From a virus, in IMG/VR virus record IMGVR_UViG_3300037189_005905, positions 1 through 20,371 of that record: 20,371 nucleotides of DNA. The stretch is one strand, 5' to 3'. The notes under the pieces were generated by a model, which had not been told where the DNA came from, ran no database searches, and saw nothing but the letters and a program-made list of their open reading frames with translations. Shown piece after piece: positions 2,289 to 8,565 of the stretch (positions within the stretch are counted from its first letter, which is position 1; every line of letters starts with the position of its first letter). Both the position numbers and the translations under genes were made by a program.

Positions 2289-2867
2289 ATGGCTTTACAA
2301 TATATGACAGATTTATCGGTCGGGAACGACCAAATGGCTAATCAGTTTCAGGCTAGGTTTGTTAACGTTCCTCCAACGACTAGTCAATCGACTAGTCAAC
2401 TTACTCTAAGAGTAAAAGGGTCAATTGAACCTCCCGATAATCAAATTGCTACTTACGACGTAGAATATCAGGGAGTAAAGTATTCTATGTTATCAGCTAA
2501 AGACGATACGGATAAAACAATAACTATTACCTTTCGACTAGACGCTGATTGGGGTACCTACGATATTTTGAAAAACTGGATGACCTATACTTTTAATTAT
2601 AGTAAAGGGAGTTCTAGTGGAAGTTTTTCAAATAAAGCCACTACTCAAACAGTAATGTATATAGACGCTTTTAAAGGCAATAAAGTTAATTCTAGTAGTA
2701 TTAAATATGATAACGTTAGAATAACAAGTTTGAAAATAAATTCTTTTGATCAAACAAGTAATGAACCTTCCGAGTTAGAATGCGTATTTATTTACGAAGC
2801 GGTTAGCGTAATATCGGATGCTGCGGCTACAGCTATCGGTACTGACAGCGTTATTGCTAGTTCTTAA
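2289..2867 (+). CDS. Tail tube protein, paralogue 1 (T4 gp19-like)
   Basis: This 192-residue protein is the first of three consecutive paralogues of the gp19-type tail tube family, which form the inner tube through which DNA passes. Shared landmarks are DQMANQF near residue 14, a 'SIEPPDNQIATYDVEYQGVK' strand pair near 45-65, DKTITITFRLDADWGTYD near 75-90, and a C-terminal 'SLKINSFDQTSNEPSELECVFIYE' block. It differs from the next two copies by 'VKGSIEPP' where they have 'RMDRSIDIP', and by a longer C-terminal tail rich in Ala, Thr and Ser. The start is ATG at 2289, eight bases after GGAGG at 2276-2280, which lies inside the end of the sheath gene. Tight spacing to the sheath implies one transcript. 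Confidence 0.85.
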   Translation: MALQYMTDLSVGNDQMANQFQARFVNVPPTTSQSTSQLTLRVKGSIEPPDNQIATYDVEYQGVKYSMLSAKDDTDKTITITFRLDADWGTYDILKNWMTYTFNYSKGSSSGSFSNKATTQTVMYIDAFKGNKVNSSSIKYDNVRITSLKINSFDQTSNEPSELECVFIYEAVSVISDAAATAIGTDSVIASS

Positions 2868-2888
2868 TAAAAATATAAGGAGACTATT

Positions 2889-3422
2889 ATGGCTTTAAAT
2901 TATCTATCATCTTTGAGCGTTGCTGATGACCAAATGGCCAATCAGTTTGAAATCGAGTTTGCTTCAGTTCCTGTTTATTCTGGAGACGCTTCTGCAAAGG
3001 CTACTACAACAGATTTAAAATTTAGAATGGATAGGTCGATAGATATTCCCGAAGCGAAAGTAGCAACTTATGATATTGAATATCGTGGTATGAAAAGTCC
3101 AATGATTGCTCAGAAAGAAGACTTTGATAAATCGGTAACTTTAAATTTTAGATTAGATGAAAATTGGAAAATTTATAACGCTTTACAGTCTTGGTATAAG
3201 ACAGCCTTTGACCCAAATAGCGGTATTAGAGGGGGAGTTTCAGATTATTCAGTAACTATGACTTTTAAGGCTTATGCAGGAAGTAGCTTAAAAAAATCCG
3301 TTACCTTTAACGACGTAAGAATTAAGAGTTTAAAGTTAGAAACTTTCGACCACGGTTCAAGCGATCCAAGTAGAGTTGAATGCGCATTTATATATAGTTA
3401 CAGTACTTTCGGACAAGTATAA
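2889..3422 (+). CDS. Tail tube protein, paralogue 2 (T4 gp19-like)
   Basis: This 177-residue protein is the second tandem gp19-like tube paralogue. It carries DDQMANQFEIEF near residue 13, RMDRSIDIPEAKVATYDIEY near 47-66, DKSVTLNFRLDENWKIYN near 80-97, and a C-terminal LKLETFDHGSSDPSRVECAF block. It is closest to the following gene, sharing RMDRSIDIP and the same length. Short DNA stretches are nearly identical too: aaattttagattaga occurs in both at equivalent positions (about 3142 and 3662), which points to gene duplication. The start is ATG at 2889 with AGGAG at 2878-2882. The stop TAA immediately abuts the GTG of the next gene. Confidence 0.85.
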   Translation: MALNYLSSLSVADDQMANQFEIEFASVPVYSGDASAKATTTDLKFRMDRSIDIPEAKVATYDIEYRGMKSPMIAQKEDFDKSVTLNFRLDENWKIYNALQSWYKTAFDPNSGIRGGVSDYSVTMTFKAYAGSSLKKSVTFNDVRIKSLKLETFDHGSSDPSRVECAFIYSYSTFGQV

Positions 3423-3956
3423 GTGAGTTTATCTTATTTAGATAAGTTAGCTAGGGTTGGAGCGGTCGATGACCAGATGTCTAACCAATTTGAAATTTAT
3501 TTCTTAGGAACGCCTGTATTAAATATTGAAGAAATGTCTCTTAGGATGGATAGGTCAATTGATATTCCTAAAAGGTCGGTCGCTAAATCAGAAATAAATT
3601 ATCAAGGCGTAAAGATACCTAAACTTACCTCAAATGAAGAAACTGATAAAACTATAACGTTAAATTTTAGATTAGACCAAAATTGGATGGTTTATAATAC
3701 CTTAAATATATGGTTTGGTAAAACGCATAATCATTTTAACGGTTCTATGAAAAAGACAGATGATAGAACAGTTACTTTAGTATTTAGGGCTTTTAAAAAT
3801 AATAATGAGACATCTAGGTTATTCCTATTTAAGAATTTACAAATAATGAGTATTAAATTATCAGAGTTCGACCATACTAGCAATGAGCCGATAAGAGTAG
3901 AGTGCGAGTTTATATATTCTGATATGGAGGATGCTATAAATGATTTCTTTATTTGA
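3423..3956 (+). CDS. Tail tube protein, paralogue 3 (T4 gp19-like), GTG start
   Basis: This 177-residue protein is the third tandem tube paralogue. The DQMSNQFEIYF, RMDRSIDIPKRSVAKSEINY, DKTITLNFRLDQNWMVYN and FDHTSNEPIRVECEFIY blocks match the two genes before it. The N-terminus has a four-residue extension (ARVGAVDDQM) relative to the other two copies. Its GTG start at 3423 follows the previous TAA without a gap, and only a weak GGA precedes it, so translation is probably coupled to the upstream gene. Its last 17 bases overlap the next gene, and that gene's GGAGG lies inside this one. A specialised role, such as a tube-end or baseplate-proximal ring, is possible but only inferred. Confidence 0.85.
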   Translation: MSLSYLDKLARVGAVDDQMSNQFEIYFLGTPVLNIEEMSLRMDRSIDIPKRSVAKSEINYQGVKIPKLTSNEETDKTITLNFRLDQNWMVYNTLNIWFGKTHNHFNGSMKKTDDRTVTLVFRAFKNNNETSRLFLFKNLQIMSIKLSEFDHTSNEPIRVECEFIYSDMEDAINDFFI

Positions 3957-4611
3957 TAATAAAAATAATATTCAAAAATTAGCTAAGTTAGATTTACAAC
4001 AAAAAAATAAATTCAAAGTAATTATGTTTCCTAGCTACGACTCTTTTTTTGATAGTGGCGGCGGTACTAACATTTCGGCTTTTGCAGGTGCGGCACTAGC
4101 GTTAGCAGGGAATGTTGTTACTAGCTTATATTTACAATCAATTACTCTTCCTGCAAGTCTTAGTATAGAATATGAAGAAATTTCTAAAGTTCCTAAAGGT
4201 CTAGTTAGGCCAGAACAAATTTCTATGACTTTTTTAGAAGATGAAAAAGGTACAGTTTGGAGATATCTACAACTTTGGAGAAAGACGATAGCCTATGTTG
4301 CTCCAGTAAAAGCTTCAGGAGATTCTTCTGGTTCATCAGGATTTAAAAGTGCGGTTAATACGGTATTAAGTGCTGAATCAGAATACGTTTTTGCAGATAA
4401 TCAATTAGCCAGCGAAAGGATAGCTATTCTATTGCCTGGTAAGGCAACCGATTCTACTCTTACTTACGGAACTGCTAAATTTCCTAGAATTATGATGTAT
4501 GGCTTAAAACTTAAAGGGATAGAAGATTTAACTTTTTCAAATGAAGAGGGCGGTAACTTAACGTATAATGCTACATTCTCAGTTAGAGAAGTTGCGGCAC
4601 CTTTAGTATAA
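3940..4611 (+). CDS. Divergent gp19-like tail tube-fold protein, possibly tube initiator or terminator
   Basis: This 223-residue protein looks like a distant member of the tail tube fold family. It has an N-terminal KNKFKVIMFPS strand, a central 'LYLQSITLPASLSIEYEEIS' region, 'ISMTFLEDEKGTVWRYLQLW', and a C-terminal strand pair (MYGLKLKGIEDLTF then LTYNATFSVREV) like the end of gp19-type proteins. An Ala/Gly-rich segment at residues 43-60 and a Ser/Gly-rich loop near 125-135 interrupt the fold. It overlaps the third tube gene by 17 bases; GGAGG at 3926-3930 supports ATG at 3940. Its position between the tubes and the chaperone would suit a tube-baseplate adaptor (gp48/gp54-type) or a tail completion protein. 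The fold is likely; the exact role is not determined. Confidence 0.6.
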   Translation: MISLFDNKNNIQKLAKLDLQQKNKFKVIMFPSYDSFFDSGGGTNISAFAGAALALAGNVVTSLYLQSITLPASLSIEYEEISKVPKGLVRPEQISMTFLEDEKGTVWRYLQLWRKTIAYVAPVKASGDSSGSSGFKSAVNTVLSAESEYVFADNQLASERIAILLPGKATDSTLTYGTAKFPRIMMYGLKLKGIEDLTFSNEEGGNLTYNATFSVREVAAPLV

Positions 4612-4641: not shown

Positions 4642-5868
4642 ATGGAACATGAGGAAGAGTCGGGATTTATAAATCCTGAAAAATTAATTAAAAATCCACA
4701 AGTCAGAAGAGTTGCTAAAACTATTATAGACGGGGATATAGACAATTCAGTTCAACCTTCCCCTCAAATAAAAGAAGTACAAAATGTAATTCATAATGAA
4801 TACCTAAACTACGGTTCTACGGTAAAGGTTGAGTTTGAATCAAGCGGTCGCTTCGGAAATCCTGCTATTTTAGTTCTTAAGGATTATTCTGCGAGACACA
4901 TTCATGATTTAGTCACTAGCAAAGAAGAAGATATATTTGAAACTCTTGTCGGTATATTGAATCAGTGCGTTGTTGAACCTGCGGGATTCGATGTAGGAAA
5001 TCTTACTAACGATGAATTTTTAGAAGTAATGATTGGTATGAAGTTAGCGTTCGATAATAGCACCTATACTCATAGGTGGATTCATAATATAGATAATTGT
5101 CAAGGAAAAGTTTCAGAATACGATGAGAAGAAAATTAGTGAGTTTCAAATAGATTTATCTCAAGTAAAAATGACTTCTATTGAAGAAAGCGATGATAAAA
5201 TTAAAGAGTTCTATCGGTCTAAGCTACAAGAGTTTTCGGAAGAACAATTTAAAGCATACCTTATGACAAAGTATAATAGAGAAATGGAATCTACTATCGA
5301 TGAAGAAATTGACAAAGTAAAGATTCAAGAACCATTTCTTATTAAGGGATATGACTGCGATTACGAGTTTAATCTAATACGGGTAAAAGATTTACTTCTA
5401 GCTCATAAAATGGCCTCTAGGGAAATTAATCATAAGATTAGGGTAGAGAAAAATAAACCTATAAAGCAAGACCAAAATAGAGACGCTAACATACAAGAAA
5501 AAGAAGACAGGTTAGATAAGTTAAATAGAGAGAAGGGCCAAAAGATTTTATCTTACGCTCAGGCTTTCTCTTTAAGATTTGTTAGAAGAAACGGAAACAG
5601 AATACCTTTAGATACTCCCGACCAAAAAATAAAAGAGTATAACAATATGCCTAGAGCAGTAGTTATAAATTATCTTAAAGCCATAGAGACTATTGAATAC
5701 GGCGTAAATCATGAAGTAGATATGGTTTGCGAACACTGTAACGGTACAGAAAGGGGGTATCTTCAACGCATCATCACTCCTCTCGATCTCATACCTTTAT
5801 CTAACGATAAGAACAATTCTACCAGCCGAAACGTTCGACAATCTTCAGGATTTGATTTTTATTTTTAA
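4642..5868 (+). CDS. gp26-like tail assembly chaperone (zero-frame product)
   Basis: This 408-residue protein resembles the T4 gp26 'base plate protein' family, whose members often sit just upstream of the tape measure gene and are thought to act as assembly chaperones. Residues 60-175 follow the family pattern: VKVEFESSGRFGNP, then 'ARHIHDLVTSKEEDIFETLV', 'LNQCVVEP' and 'NDEFLEVMIGMKLAF'. A charged, probably helical segment (176-230) and a second charged stretch (266-300) separate this from a C-terminal part with a CEHC half-zinc-ribbon at 363-366, followed by IITPLDLIPL, which fits the family ending. It lacks a signal peptide or membrane segments. ATG at 4642 is preceded by GGAG at 4627-4630. 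The +1 frame stays open past this stop to 6025, which suggests a longer frameshifted product. The neighbouring tape measure supports the chaperone role; whether it stays in the virion is unknown. Confidence 0.65.
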   Translation: MEHEEESGFINPEKLIKNPQVRRVAKTIIDGDIDNSVQPSPQIKEVQNVIHNEYLNYGSTVKVEFESSGRFGNPAILVLKDYSARHIHDLVTSKEEDIFETLVGILNQCVVEPAGFDVGNLTNDEFLEVMIGMKLAFDNSTYTHRWIHNIDNCQGKVSEYDEKKISEFQIDLSQVKMTSIEESDDKIKEFYRSKLQEFSEEQFKAYLMTKYNREMESTIDEEIDKVKIQEPFLIKGYDCDYEFNLIRVKDLLLAHKMASREINHKIRVEKNKPIKQDQNRDANIQEKEDRLDKLNREKGQKILSYAQAFSLRFVRRNGNRIPLDTPDQKIKEYNNMPRAVVINYLKAIETIEYGVNHEVDMVCEHCNGTERGYLQRIITPLDLIPLSNDKNNSTSRNVRQSSGFDFYF

Positions 5869-6025
5869 CCTAGAATTAAGAACTTCAGATGAAGAATTTT
5901 TAAACATGCCTTACCATTGGGTTAAGGCAAAATACTCTAGGCTAAAGAAAAAATGGGAAATGCAAGAGAAACAACAAAAAGAAATGGAAGAGAAAATGAA
6001 ACAAAATCGTTCTAAAAAAAGATAA
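5867..6025 (+). CDS. Probable +1-frameshift 'T' extension of the tail assembly chaperone
   Basis: The +1 frame is open from 5717 to the TAA at 6023-6025. From 5867 it encodes 52 residues including LELRTSDEEFLNMPYHWVKA, then a highly charged helix-like tail rich in Lys, Glu and Gln. The 'short hydrophobic stretch, acidic, NMPYHW, then helix' pattern resembles the T domains fused to tail chaperones by translational frameshifting. This frame has no convincing start of its own: the first ATG (5906) falls inside the motif and has no good ribosome binding site. At the zero-frame terminus UUU (5863-5865) is followed by UAA and C, so the Phe tRNA could re-pair perfectly one base downstream and continue with AAC, giving a fusion of about 460 residues. 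A shift upstream within 5717-5866 is also possible. It lies between the chaperone and the tape measure, where such extensions are expected. Confidence 0.55.
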   Translation, partial: NLELRTSDEEFLNMPYHWVKAKYSRLKKKWEMQEKQQKEMEEKMKQNRSKKR

Positions 6026-6039: not shown

Positions 6040-8565
6040 ATGGCCTCTGATTCTTCATCTATGGTTTTTCCTTTACCCCTTCCCGTAATTATTTCGGATA
6101 AGCCAATACAGACATCTACCCTAGATGAACAAAAATCTCAAACCGATTTATTAAGAAATCAACAAGGTATGTGGACAAAATACCTTCAACTTTTTGGTTT
6201 AAATAAAGAGGAACTAAACGAACATAATAATCAAATTGTTAACGAGTTAAAAGTACAAAACGAACAAAGTAAAGATAAGATTGAACAAGATACTAGGGAT
6301 AAGAAGAAAGATGAGAAAGGGGAAAAGCTAAAGGATAAGTTAGCTAAGTTTTGGGAAAAGATTAAATTTTGGAAATACTTTCCCGACTTGTTTAAAAACA
6401 TAAAAGAGATTGCTAAAAATTCTTACGAGAAAGTTAAGGGTTGGATAGAAGGTCTTGCTGAATGGTTTTGGTATTCTCTAGTCGATCCTTCGGGTTCTTT
6501 AATTACTACTGTTGTAGCCTTAATAATTCCTGCTTTAGGTAACTTAGTAACGTTAGCTATGAACCTATTAGGAACGGTCATACCTCAAATTATTAATATG
6601 GTAATAGCTTTCTTACCGCAAATGTTTAGAATGATAGAGACTCTAGTTCTAAAATTAGTTAAAATGGCCCCAATGTTTATAAATGCTTTAGTTAAGGCTA
6701 TCCCGATTCTAATTAAAGGTTTGGTTAGAGTTTTACCCGTTTTAGTTAAGGCTTTGATTAAGGTAACTATTGCTTTATTTAAAGCGGTTGTTTTATTAAT
6801 TCCCGTTTTACTTAAAGGAGTTTGGGATGCAGCAAAGGGTATATGGAAAGAGTTAGTCAACGCATGGCCCGAACTAAAGAAAGCCTTGATAGACGGAATG
6901 GCAAGTCTAGGTAAATCAATCCTTAAAATATTTGACGATATTTTCGGAGGCGACTCTTCCGAAACTATGAAAAAAGTAAAAGACTTCTTTAATGATTTAT
7001 ATATTATAATGGATTATTTATGGATGGAGTTAAAGGGATTCTTTAAAGATATTTACGACGCTCTGGGTGGGGAAGAGGGTATAATGAAATCTTTCGAGGG
7101 CGTTAAGAAAGCGGTATCGGATATATGGGATTCCATTTCCTCATTTATAGATGAAATGATGCCTTATATTGAAATGTTGATCCCTCCTTTGATGAAATTG
7201 AAAGACGTTTTTGTTAGGGTTAGTTTAGTAGTTATTAAAGGTTTGAAATGGGCCTTTGATAAACTTATGATTGTTATTGGGCCTGTTATAGATATTATAC
7301 TTTGGTTAGTTAAGACTTTCTTTAAATTTCTTATTCCTATTGTAGCTTGGCTTATAGATATATTTGCTGATTTATACGACTCATATATAGACATATTGGA
7401 AGTAGTAGGAAAAGTAATAGACTGGTTATGGGATTGGGGAGTTAAAGTAGTTAAATGGTTCAAAGATTTATGGGAAACTGTCAGTAAAGCTTTCGATAAG
7501 GTTAAAGACGTTTTTGTAGAAACTTGGGACGCTCTAGCTAACGCAGTTAAAGACGGTCTTAAAAAACTACTTGGTTATTTTTCTAATTGGTTTAGTAGCG
7601 TTAAGGATGAAGTTCCTGAACCAATTAACCAAACGGAAACTTCGACTACTACCAATACGGGGGAACTATCGGGCGACCAATCTCTGTACAATAGAACTTT
7701 AAAGAAAACTAAAGAACAACTAGATAAGGGAAGACAAGGAATAGAAAAATTTAGAGAAACAATCAATAAGGCTTTTAATCTTAGAACTATTAGCATACCT
7801 AATATAGGTTCTATGTTTAGCGGTATAGTAAGCAACGCTTTTAGTACTGCGGCTTCGGCTTCGGGAATAAAAGGAATTATAGACGACGTAAAAGATTCTG
7901 CAACTTTTAAAGCTATCGAAAGGTTAGTAGGGGAATTCAAAAAAAGTTTTGATAGTATAATAAATGATTTAAAAACGAGTTTTAAGAACTTCATAGATTG
8001 GTTTGAAAACTTACCTTTAGTTAAGCCAGCGTTAGATGCAGTTAAAAAAGTTAAAAATGCGTTAATCGGTGGTACAAATCCAACGCCTGGTCAAACTACA
8101 AATATAAAAGTAGAAAGACAAAAGGGTAGTATTTTTAACGCCTTTCAATCTTATTCTACAGAAGATTTAGAAAAAACTAAAGCAGCTGCCGCTAAAAAAA
8201 ATTTAAACGTTAAAGATGAAAAGTCTTTAAGAAATGCGTTTGAAGCAAAATTTGGAGCAAATGTTGAAAATAAAGATTTGTTATCAGAATATTTTATAAG
8301 AAAGCTACGAGGGGAAGATATTAAGGCTGAAAAGTTTTTTGAAGGAAGTGATGAAGCAATAACAGAAGAAATGGGAAGAAATATTGATAAATTAGTTAGT
8401 GAAATGAATTCTCAAAATAAAGATGCTAAAAATAGAGACAAAGAGTTATTAGATTGGCTTAATGCTAACAGCGGTTCAGGTAAGACAGTTAATACCATTC
8501 TGTTTACTAGCCCTAAACAAGTACCTGGGTTTACAGAAGCGTTTAGTAATAGTGGTGTAAAATAG
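6040..8565 (+). CDS. Tail tape measure protein
   Basis: This 841-residue protein is the likely tape measure protein, which sets tail length and fills the tube lumen before ejection. The N-terminus (about 30-120) is polar, helical and Lys/Glu-rich. Long hydrophobic helical tracts follow at about 154-194, 209-262 (alternating Leu/Val/Ile with Lys, such as ALVKAIPILIKGLVRVLPVL) and 380-454. A Thr/Asn-rich linker lies near 524-550, with another amphipathic helical region and a charged C-terminus after it. No lytic domain is visible. At the usual rule of about 0.15 nm per residue the tail would be roughly 125 nm, an inference only. ATG at 6040 is the first start after an in-frame TAA at 6031 and has no Shine-Dalgarno. 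Its place after the chaperone and before the hub genes fits the role. Confidence 0.85.
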   Translation: MASDSSSMVFPLPLPVIISDKPIQTSTLDEQKSQTDLLRNQQGMWTKYLQLFGLNKEELNEHNNQIVNELKVQNEQSKDKIEQDTRDKKKDEKGEKLKDKLAKFWEKIKFWKYFPDLFKNIKEIAKNSYEKVKGWIEGLAEWFWYSLVDPSGSLITTVVALIIPALGNLVTLAMNLLGTVIPQIINMVIAFLPQMFRMIETLVLKLVKMAPMFINALVKAIPILIKGLVRVLPVLVKALIKVTIALFKAVVLLIPVLLKGVWDAAKGIWKELVNAWPELKKALIDGMASLGKSILKIFDDIFGGDSSETMKKVKDFFNDLYIIMDYLWMELKGFFKDIYDALGGEEGIMKSFEGVKKAVSDIWDSISSFIDEMMPYIEMLIPPLMKLKDVFVRVSLVVIKGLKWAFDKLMIVIGPVIDIILWLVKTFFKFLIPIVAWLIDIFADLYDSYIDILEVVGKVIDWLWDWGVKVVKWFKDLWETVSKAFDKVKDVFVETWDALANAVKDGLKKLLGYFSNWFSSVKDEVPEPINQTETSTTTNTGELSGDQSLYNRTLKKTKEQLDKGRQGIEKFRETINKAFNLRTISIPNIGSMFSGIVSNAFSTAASASGIKGIIDDVKDSATFKAIERLVGEFKKSFDSIINDLKTSFKNFIDWFENLPLVKPALDAVKKVKNALIGGTNPTPGQTTNIKVERQKGSIFNAFQSYSTEDLEKTKAAAAKKNLNVKDEKSLRNAFEAKFGANVENKDLLSEYFIRKLRGEDIKAEKFFEGSDEAITEEMGRNIDKLVSEMNSQNKDAKNRDKELLDWLNANSGSGKTVNTILFTSPKQVPGFTEAFSNSGVK

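Follow-up and report, generated by a model that had tools for sequence, protein, structure and literature searches.

Introduction

The main known case of Shine-Dalgarno (SD)-stimulated +1 frameshifting in bacteria is prfB, the gene of release factor 2 (RF2), in which a stop codon supplies the pause. Tail assembly chaperones of phages are also made by frameshifting, the shift in Mu being -2, and Vladimirov and co-workers are said to have described in 2022 that the gp26 and gp51 parts are separate genes in T4-like phages. The chaperone frameshifts of the G/GT type (lambda, HK97, P2, Mu and the Vandenendeviridae) are mostly -1, as in phage Adele, where the shift takes place at GTTTTT (PMC12846349), and chaperone frameshifts tested elsewhere reached 6–7% (PMC3711429). 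A +1 shift in phage structural genes occurs in Listeria phage PSA, at a proline codon before a pseudoknot or stop and not in a chaperone, and no SD cassette is described there (PMC5009743).

The prfB frameshift cassette of E. coli has been described (PMC8710568, PMC12421855). The SD-to-slip-codon spacing for +1 shifts is 3 nt (PMC5009743). UAU is among the typical spacer codons, and by the accepted mechanism tRNA-Leu(GAG) slips off CUU onto the next triplet (PMC13245932). RF2 sites with CGN sense codons in place of UGA have been used to measure +1 shifting with a B. subtilis reporter (PMC10454642), which indicates that the stop codon is not essential. The literature searched, outside which most subscription papers lie, yielded no description of a phage chaperone with a prfB-like cassette. 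While tail-chaperone frameshifting is known, the RF2-like, stop-less +1 signal that is proposed here to drive it would be new.

Results

Locus and relatives

The features of the locus are collected in Table 1, in which the window is the whole stretch of DNA that was analysed. The chaperone gene sits between the tail tube and tape measure genes in the window and in both of its relatives, the IMG/VR contigs L003 and L042. The upstream part of the module holds three tandem tail-tube paralogues and a fourth tube-like gene; multiple tube copies were also seen in L042 and in Rhizobium phage RHph_N46, and have been described for Vandenendeviridae (PMC12846349).

Table 1. Coordinates of the chaperone locus and of the proposed slip cassette in the window.
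Feature	Position	Strand	Details and basis
Virus record IMGVR_UViG_3300037189_005905	20,371 bases (window)		Contractile-tail module: sheath, tube paralogues, chaperone, tape measure, baseplate genes
Tail tube paralogues and tube-like/terminator-like gene, 5' of chaperone	2289..4611	+	PHROG 45 tail tube matches; paralogue alignment
Tail assembly chaperone, 0-frame short form (G-like; gp26/PHROG 13792-like)	4642..5868	+	408 aa; ORF, PHROG match, position
SD-like stimulator AGGGGG (codons AGG GGG)	5752..5757	+	Identical in L003, L042 and E. coli prfB
3-nt spacer / E-site codon UAU	5758..5760	+	Identical in all three; E. coli prfB spacer codon
Proposed +1 slip site CUU_C	5761..5764	+	Identical in window, L003 and L042; 0-frame A-site CAA, +1 codon AAC
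+1-frame T-like segment	5765..6025	+	86 aa, then stop; +1-frame conservation, helical model
0-frame stop UAA	5866..5868	+	Slip point of the first-pass annotation; same place in L003
Tape measure protein gene, directly 3' of chaperone locus	6040..8565	+	PHROG tape-measure matches down to 5e-23

An open +1 frame runs from 5720 to a stop at 6023–6025, across the chaperone end, with 52 codons beyond the 0-frame stop. The first-pass annotation had given the end of this frame correctly and its start as 5717, where a TAG (5717–5719) lies; the 52-codon extension, the UUU at 5863–5865 and the GGGGG run at 5753–5757 were all found where it had placed them. It had also held that the frame has no good start of its own, and indeed no +1-frame start codon with a ribosome-binding site is common to the window, L003 and L042, and a second gene of the T4 gp26/gp51 style, with its own start, was found in none of the three.

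Among 50,697 phage records, none matched the chaperone, the +1 tail or the DNA, and neither scans with the chaperone, the sheath or the +1 tail alone nor a search of genome contigs returned relatives. L003 was found through alignment of the three tube paralogues; its gene order is that of the window, the two chaperones share 53% identity, and the +1 tail of L003 has the same overlap position and ends just short of the tape measure gene. L042 was found by an IMG/VR pattern scan for the 15-base slip region AGGGGGTATCTTCAA, which occurred in 44 stretches; besides L003, only L042 combined a long ORF with a +1 tail, in the same gene order, with a homologous chaperone (32% identical) and the same overlapping +1 tail. 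The remaining stretches were rejected because this architecture was absent. L007 and L008 were chance matches to the slip-region pattern, and the region round the baseplate gene of MA9V-1 gave no useful comparison. Since L042 was retrieved by the motif, its motif is not independent evidence, whereas its homology and two-frame layout are. The comparison rests on three sequences, of which L003 and L042 come from one metagenome sample, yet are clearly different phages. The terminase-like protein of L042 (847–3831, minus strand) appears to carry an intein, with an interruption near the GKS motif by a segment that starts at Cys and ends HN-S.

A prfB-like cassette in the chaperone gene

The 0 frame at 5752–5764 reads AGG GGG UAU CUU C, and its 12-base core is identical, in the same frame, to the E. 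coli prfB cassette (AGGGGGUAUCUU), as confirmed by matching to prfB in 5,375 E. coli genomes. The likeness to the RF2 site that the first-pass annotation had noticed at the stop is real, its place being about 100 nt further upstream. The cassette lies in the longest run of identical codons between the chaperone genes of the window and L003, TERGYLQR (ACAGAAAGGGGGUAUCUUCAACGC; ACA GAA AGG GGG UAU CUU CAA CGC), the L042 equivalent of which is ACA GAU AGG GGG UAU CUU CAA CAG. From T369 on, the window and L003 use the same codon at 17/19 conserved residues, compared with 103/188 upstream. AGGGGG was found once in 14.7 kb of L003, and the in-frame pattern AGG(A/G)GG-NNN-CTT-Y, expected by chance in the permitted stretch at about 3e-5, had no other occurrence in the 8,847 codons of the window and L003 contigs. 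When CTTC is read as one step, clean fusions of 451 aa (L003) and 477 aa (L042) result, and in these two the slip-site CTTC is the sole in-frame CTTC of the chaperone gene; the window fusion was computed as 374 + 86 = 460 aa, the window gene holding further in-frame CTTC words.

In all three sequences AGGGGG stands in frame and 3 nt from CUU, which is followed by a pyrimidine and could re-pair. Judged by base pairing, the new triplet, UUC, should be no worse a fit than UUU in prfB. In the A site stands CAA and not the UGA stop plus C of prfB, and CAA is the common Gln codon of the window contig (186/211), so that, with neither a stop nor an evidently slow codon in the A site, efficiency may be low. 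No downstream RNA structure was detected (z between -0.1 and -1.1). Several genes in the window and L003 contigs carry SD sequences, which makes anti-SD pairing plausible in the host.

Conservation of the +1 frame in the overlap

The alignment of the window with L003 is gap-free across the overlap, and changes in 5758–5868 fall 20, 6 and 9 times on third, first and second +1-codon positions, respectively. When synonymous codons were shuffled with both 0-frame proteins fixed, the +1 frame was open in both sequences in about 1/10,000 trials. Identity in the +1 frame was 21/34, with 12.7 ± 2.1 expected (0/20,000 synonymous shuffles reached the observed value), and each half of the overlap showed the excess (P 0.0085 and 0.003). 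In the converse shuffle, in which the +1 proteins were held constant, 0-frame identity was 13 vs. 17 expected, without excess. An excess in both halves for the +1 frame and none for the 0 frame argues that translation is in the +1 frame from near 5764 on; as judged by this alignment, the constrained frame in the overlap is +1, not 0, beginning just after 5764 and not at the stop. The +1 shift assumed by the first-pass annotation is supported, and so is its T-domain-like extension, the conservation of which was confirmed in sequence comparison, together with an overlap exceeding chance.

Conservation between the window and L003 reaches about 34 codons 5' of the UAA. The LIFIF helix, the codons of which precede the 0-frame stop, is kept in the window, L003 and L042. 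The underlying bases at 5854–5865 of the window (ATTTTTATTTTT), which read LIFIF in +1 and DFYF/NFYF in the 0 frame, are identical in all three even at silent sites, possibly owing to dual coding only. The 0 frame is itself open across 5764–5865 in the window and L003, which chance would give about once in 1,000, and over a comparable length in L042. Its residues there show no conservation in excess of that imposed by the +1 frame; this suggests that the short form requires the presence of this tail, not its exact sequence.

Chaperone family and T-like segment

The identification of a gp26-like chaperone ending at 5868 held: PHROG 13792 is matched by L003 (4.7e-6, the best of the three), by the window (0.0035, weak for the window alone) and by L042. 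The same profile also hits RHph_N46, at the syntenic gene (1.4e-9), as well as S-SRM01 and EniLVp02, at their gp26-position genes, although direct hhalign of the chaperone to these two gp26-position genes was not significant. A separate 57-aa ORF follows the gp26-position gene and precedes the tape measure in EniLVp02 and S-SRM01, and the window fusion likely corresponds to a gp26-like and gp51-like pair. The gp51-like half of this correspondence draws on its place in the gene order and a loose motif (..MP[YW]..), because profile comparison was not significant; likewise, hhalign of the T segment against known T domains, with 2–3-sequence profiles, was not significant. The T segment was modelled as helical at moderate confidence (mean pLDDT 69.6), with one helix across the 0-frame stop, and its fold search gave no match with E below 1e-3. 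The short form, folded separately from the T segment, gave a poor model (pLDDT 48), and a PDB profile search returned nothing.

Alternative explanations

The first-pass annotation had proposed that tRNA-Phe slips by +1 on UUU_U at the UAA (5863–5868), the T part then starting from NLEL. UUU UAA is present in both the window and L003, within an identical flank (ATTTTTATTTTTAA); a small share of prfB genes have UUU_U as their slip site (PMC5009743), and the +1 tails of RHph_N46 (CCC UAA) and of Streptomyces phage LuckySocke (CUC UGA) overlap near their stops. Nevertheless, a slip at this point would leave some 34 upstream +1 codons untranslated and their conservation unexplained, the predicted helix 27–38 straddles the stop (in a moderate-confidence model), and no SD lies there at 3-nt spacing. 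L042 has no UUU UAA at its stop, its 0 frame running to DFYFSN* with a UAG after AAU. With +1 conservation extending 5' of the UAA and a relative that lacks the site, the shift must lie upstream of the stop, and slippage at UUU UAA is considered very unlikely.

The same downstream +1 conservation is predicted by a Mu-like -2 slip, or a +1 slip on GGG_U, at the GGGGG run, which reaches the same frame. GGG re-pairs perfectly at -2 and the run is kept in the window, L003 and L042. However, re-pairing does not extend to a second codon (AGG to AAA), the run also forms a complete SD-like element with the spacing for +1 shifts, and the UAU and CUU at the exact positions of the prfB cassette are left unexplained. 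The run fits better in the role of SD-like stimulator for a +1 shift, and a -2 event appears unlikely; it would give the joint peptide GGIFNASSLLSISYLYLTIR (...ERGG-IFN), whereas a +1 slip at CUU would give the tryptic joint peptide GYL-NASSLLSISYLYLTIR.

A separate gene for the +1 tail would have a precedent in the gp26-position gene and 57-aa gene of T4-like EniLVp02 and S-SRM01, two ORFs before the tape measure. Against it stand the lack of a conserved start with ribosome-binding site in the +1 frame and a conservation that begins immediately past the cassette. An assembly error or a decayed gene was considered as well, but the same frames recur in three independent contigs, so that the single-base error named by the first-pass annotation as a possible refutation does not apply. 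Taken together, a separate, erroneous or decayed tail is highly improbable.

Discussion

On the comparison of the three sequences, it was established that both frames are conserved, that the cassette is identical and that the shift point lies 5' of the stop. The long form of the tail chaperone is probably made through a stop-less, RF2-like +1 signal at 5752–5764. The majority of ribosomes would read the 0 frame to the UAA at 5866 and yield the short form, whereas a minority would pause at the cassette, with AGGGGG paired to the anti-SD of 16S rRNA and CUU in the P site. Ahead of the decoding of CAA, the strain would shift the peptidyl-tRNA-Leu by +1, off CUU and onto UUC; reading would resume at AAC (5765) and run to the stop at 6023, giving the 460-aa fusion, the C-terminal part of which is a helical, T-like segment. 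By the pattern of other G/GT systems, the tape measure would be coated by the short form, which is abundant, and tube subunits would be brought in by the long form, which is rare. The slip event, its efficiency (probably a few percent) and these assembly roles are inferred; a level of 6–7% for the window chaperone would be a guess by analogy.

The phage site and the prfB cassette share stimulator, spacer, slip codon, frame and direction. The phage site differs in its sense codon in the A site and in joining a chaperone to a T part, without RF2 autoregulation; with CAA in place of UGA there would be no stop competition, and the site would work like an RF2 autoregulatory site without being one. 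The locus resembles the G/GT systems in its position between tube and tape measure and in overlapping frames giving a short and a long form with a small helical C-terminal part, and differs in its +1 direction, SD-like stimulator and lack of RNA structure. The T4-like gp26 and gp51 genes are alike in the PHROG 13792 match and the small ORF before the tape measure, although the two parts, separate there, would be joined by the proposed frameshift in the window.

RHph_N46 and LuckySocke share the order of sheath, tube(s), chaperone, +1-frame T-like tail and tape measure-sized gene, but have no prfB-like cassette, their possible slips lying at or near the 0-frame stop. In RHph_N46 (L011, 10980–12285), the +1 tail overlaps the chaperone stop (UUG UUU CCC UAA GC) and is annotated merely as a 52-aa ORF from a later ATG; this resembles a +1 frameshift, not annotated as such, at UUU_C or CCC_U before the UAA. 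In LuckySocke (L012, 4391–5498), an unannotated +1-frame T-like tail (SDYELAYQEYEQLVDAYGWSLFELKK...HWVNRY) is open across the chaperone stop, with UUU_C before CUC UGA, or CUC_UGA itself, as slip candidates.

If the proposed reading is true, the site is a natural sense-codon cassette in which anti-SD strain is enough by itself to give low-level but useful shifting, and phages would possess, beside the familiar -1 and -2 shifts, another type of signal for their short/long chaperone ratio. It would also link the two-gene chaperones of T4 to the frameshifted ones, and annotators would gain the searchable motif AGGGGG-NNN-CUUY. More tentatively, an uncultivated T4-related lineage of contractile phages may join gp26-like and gp51-like chaperones by means of a stop-less RF2 cassette, in which the short-to-long ratio would reflect anti-SD slippage against Gln-codon decoding and could perhaps respond to the tRNA-Gln supply of the host.
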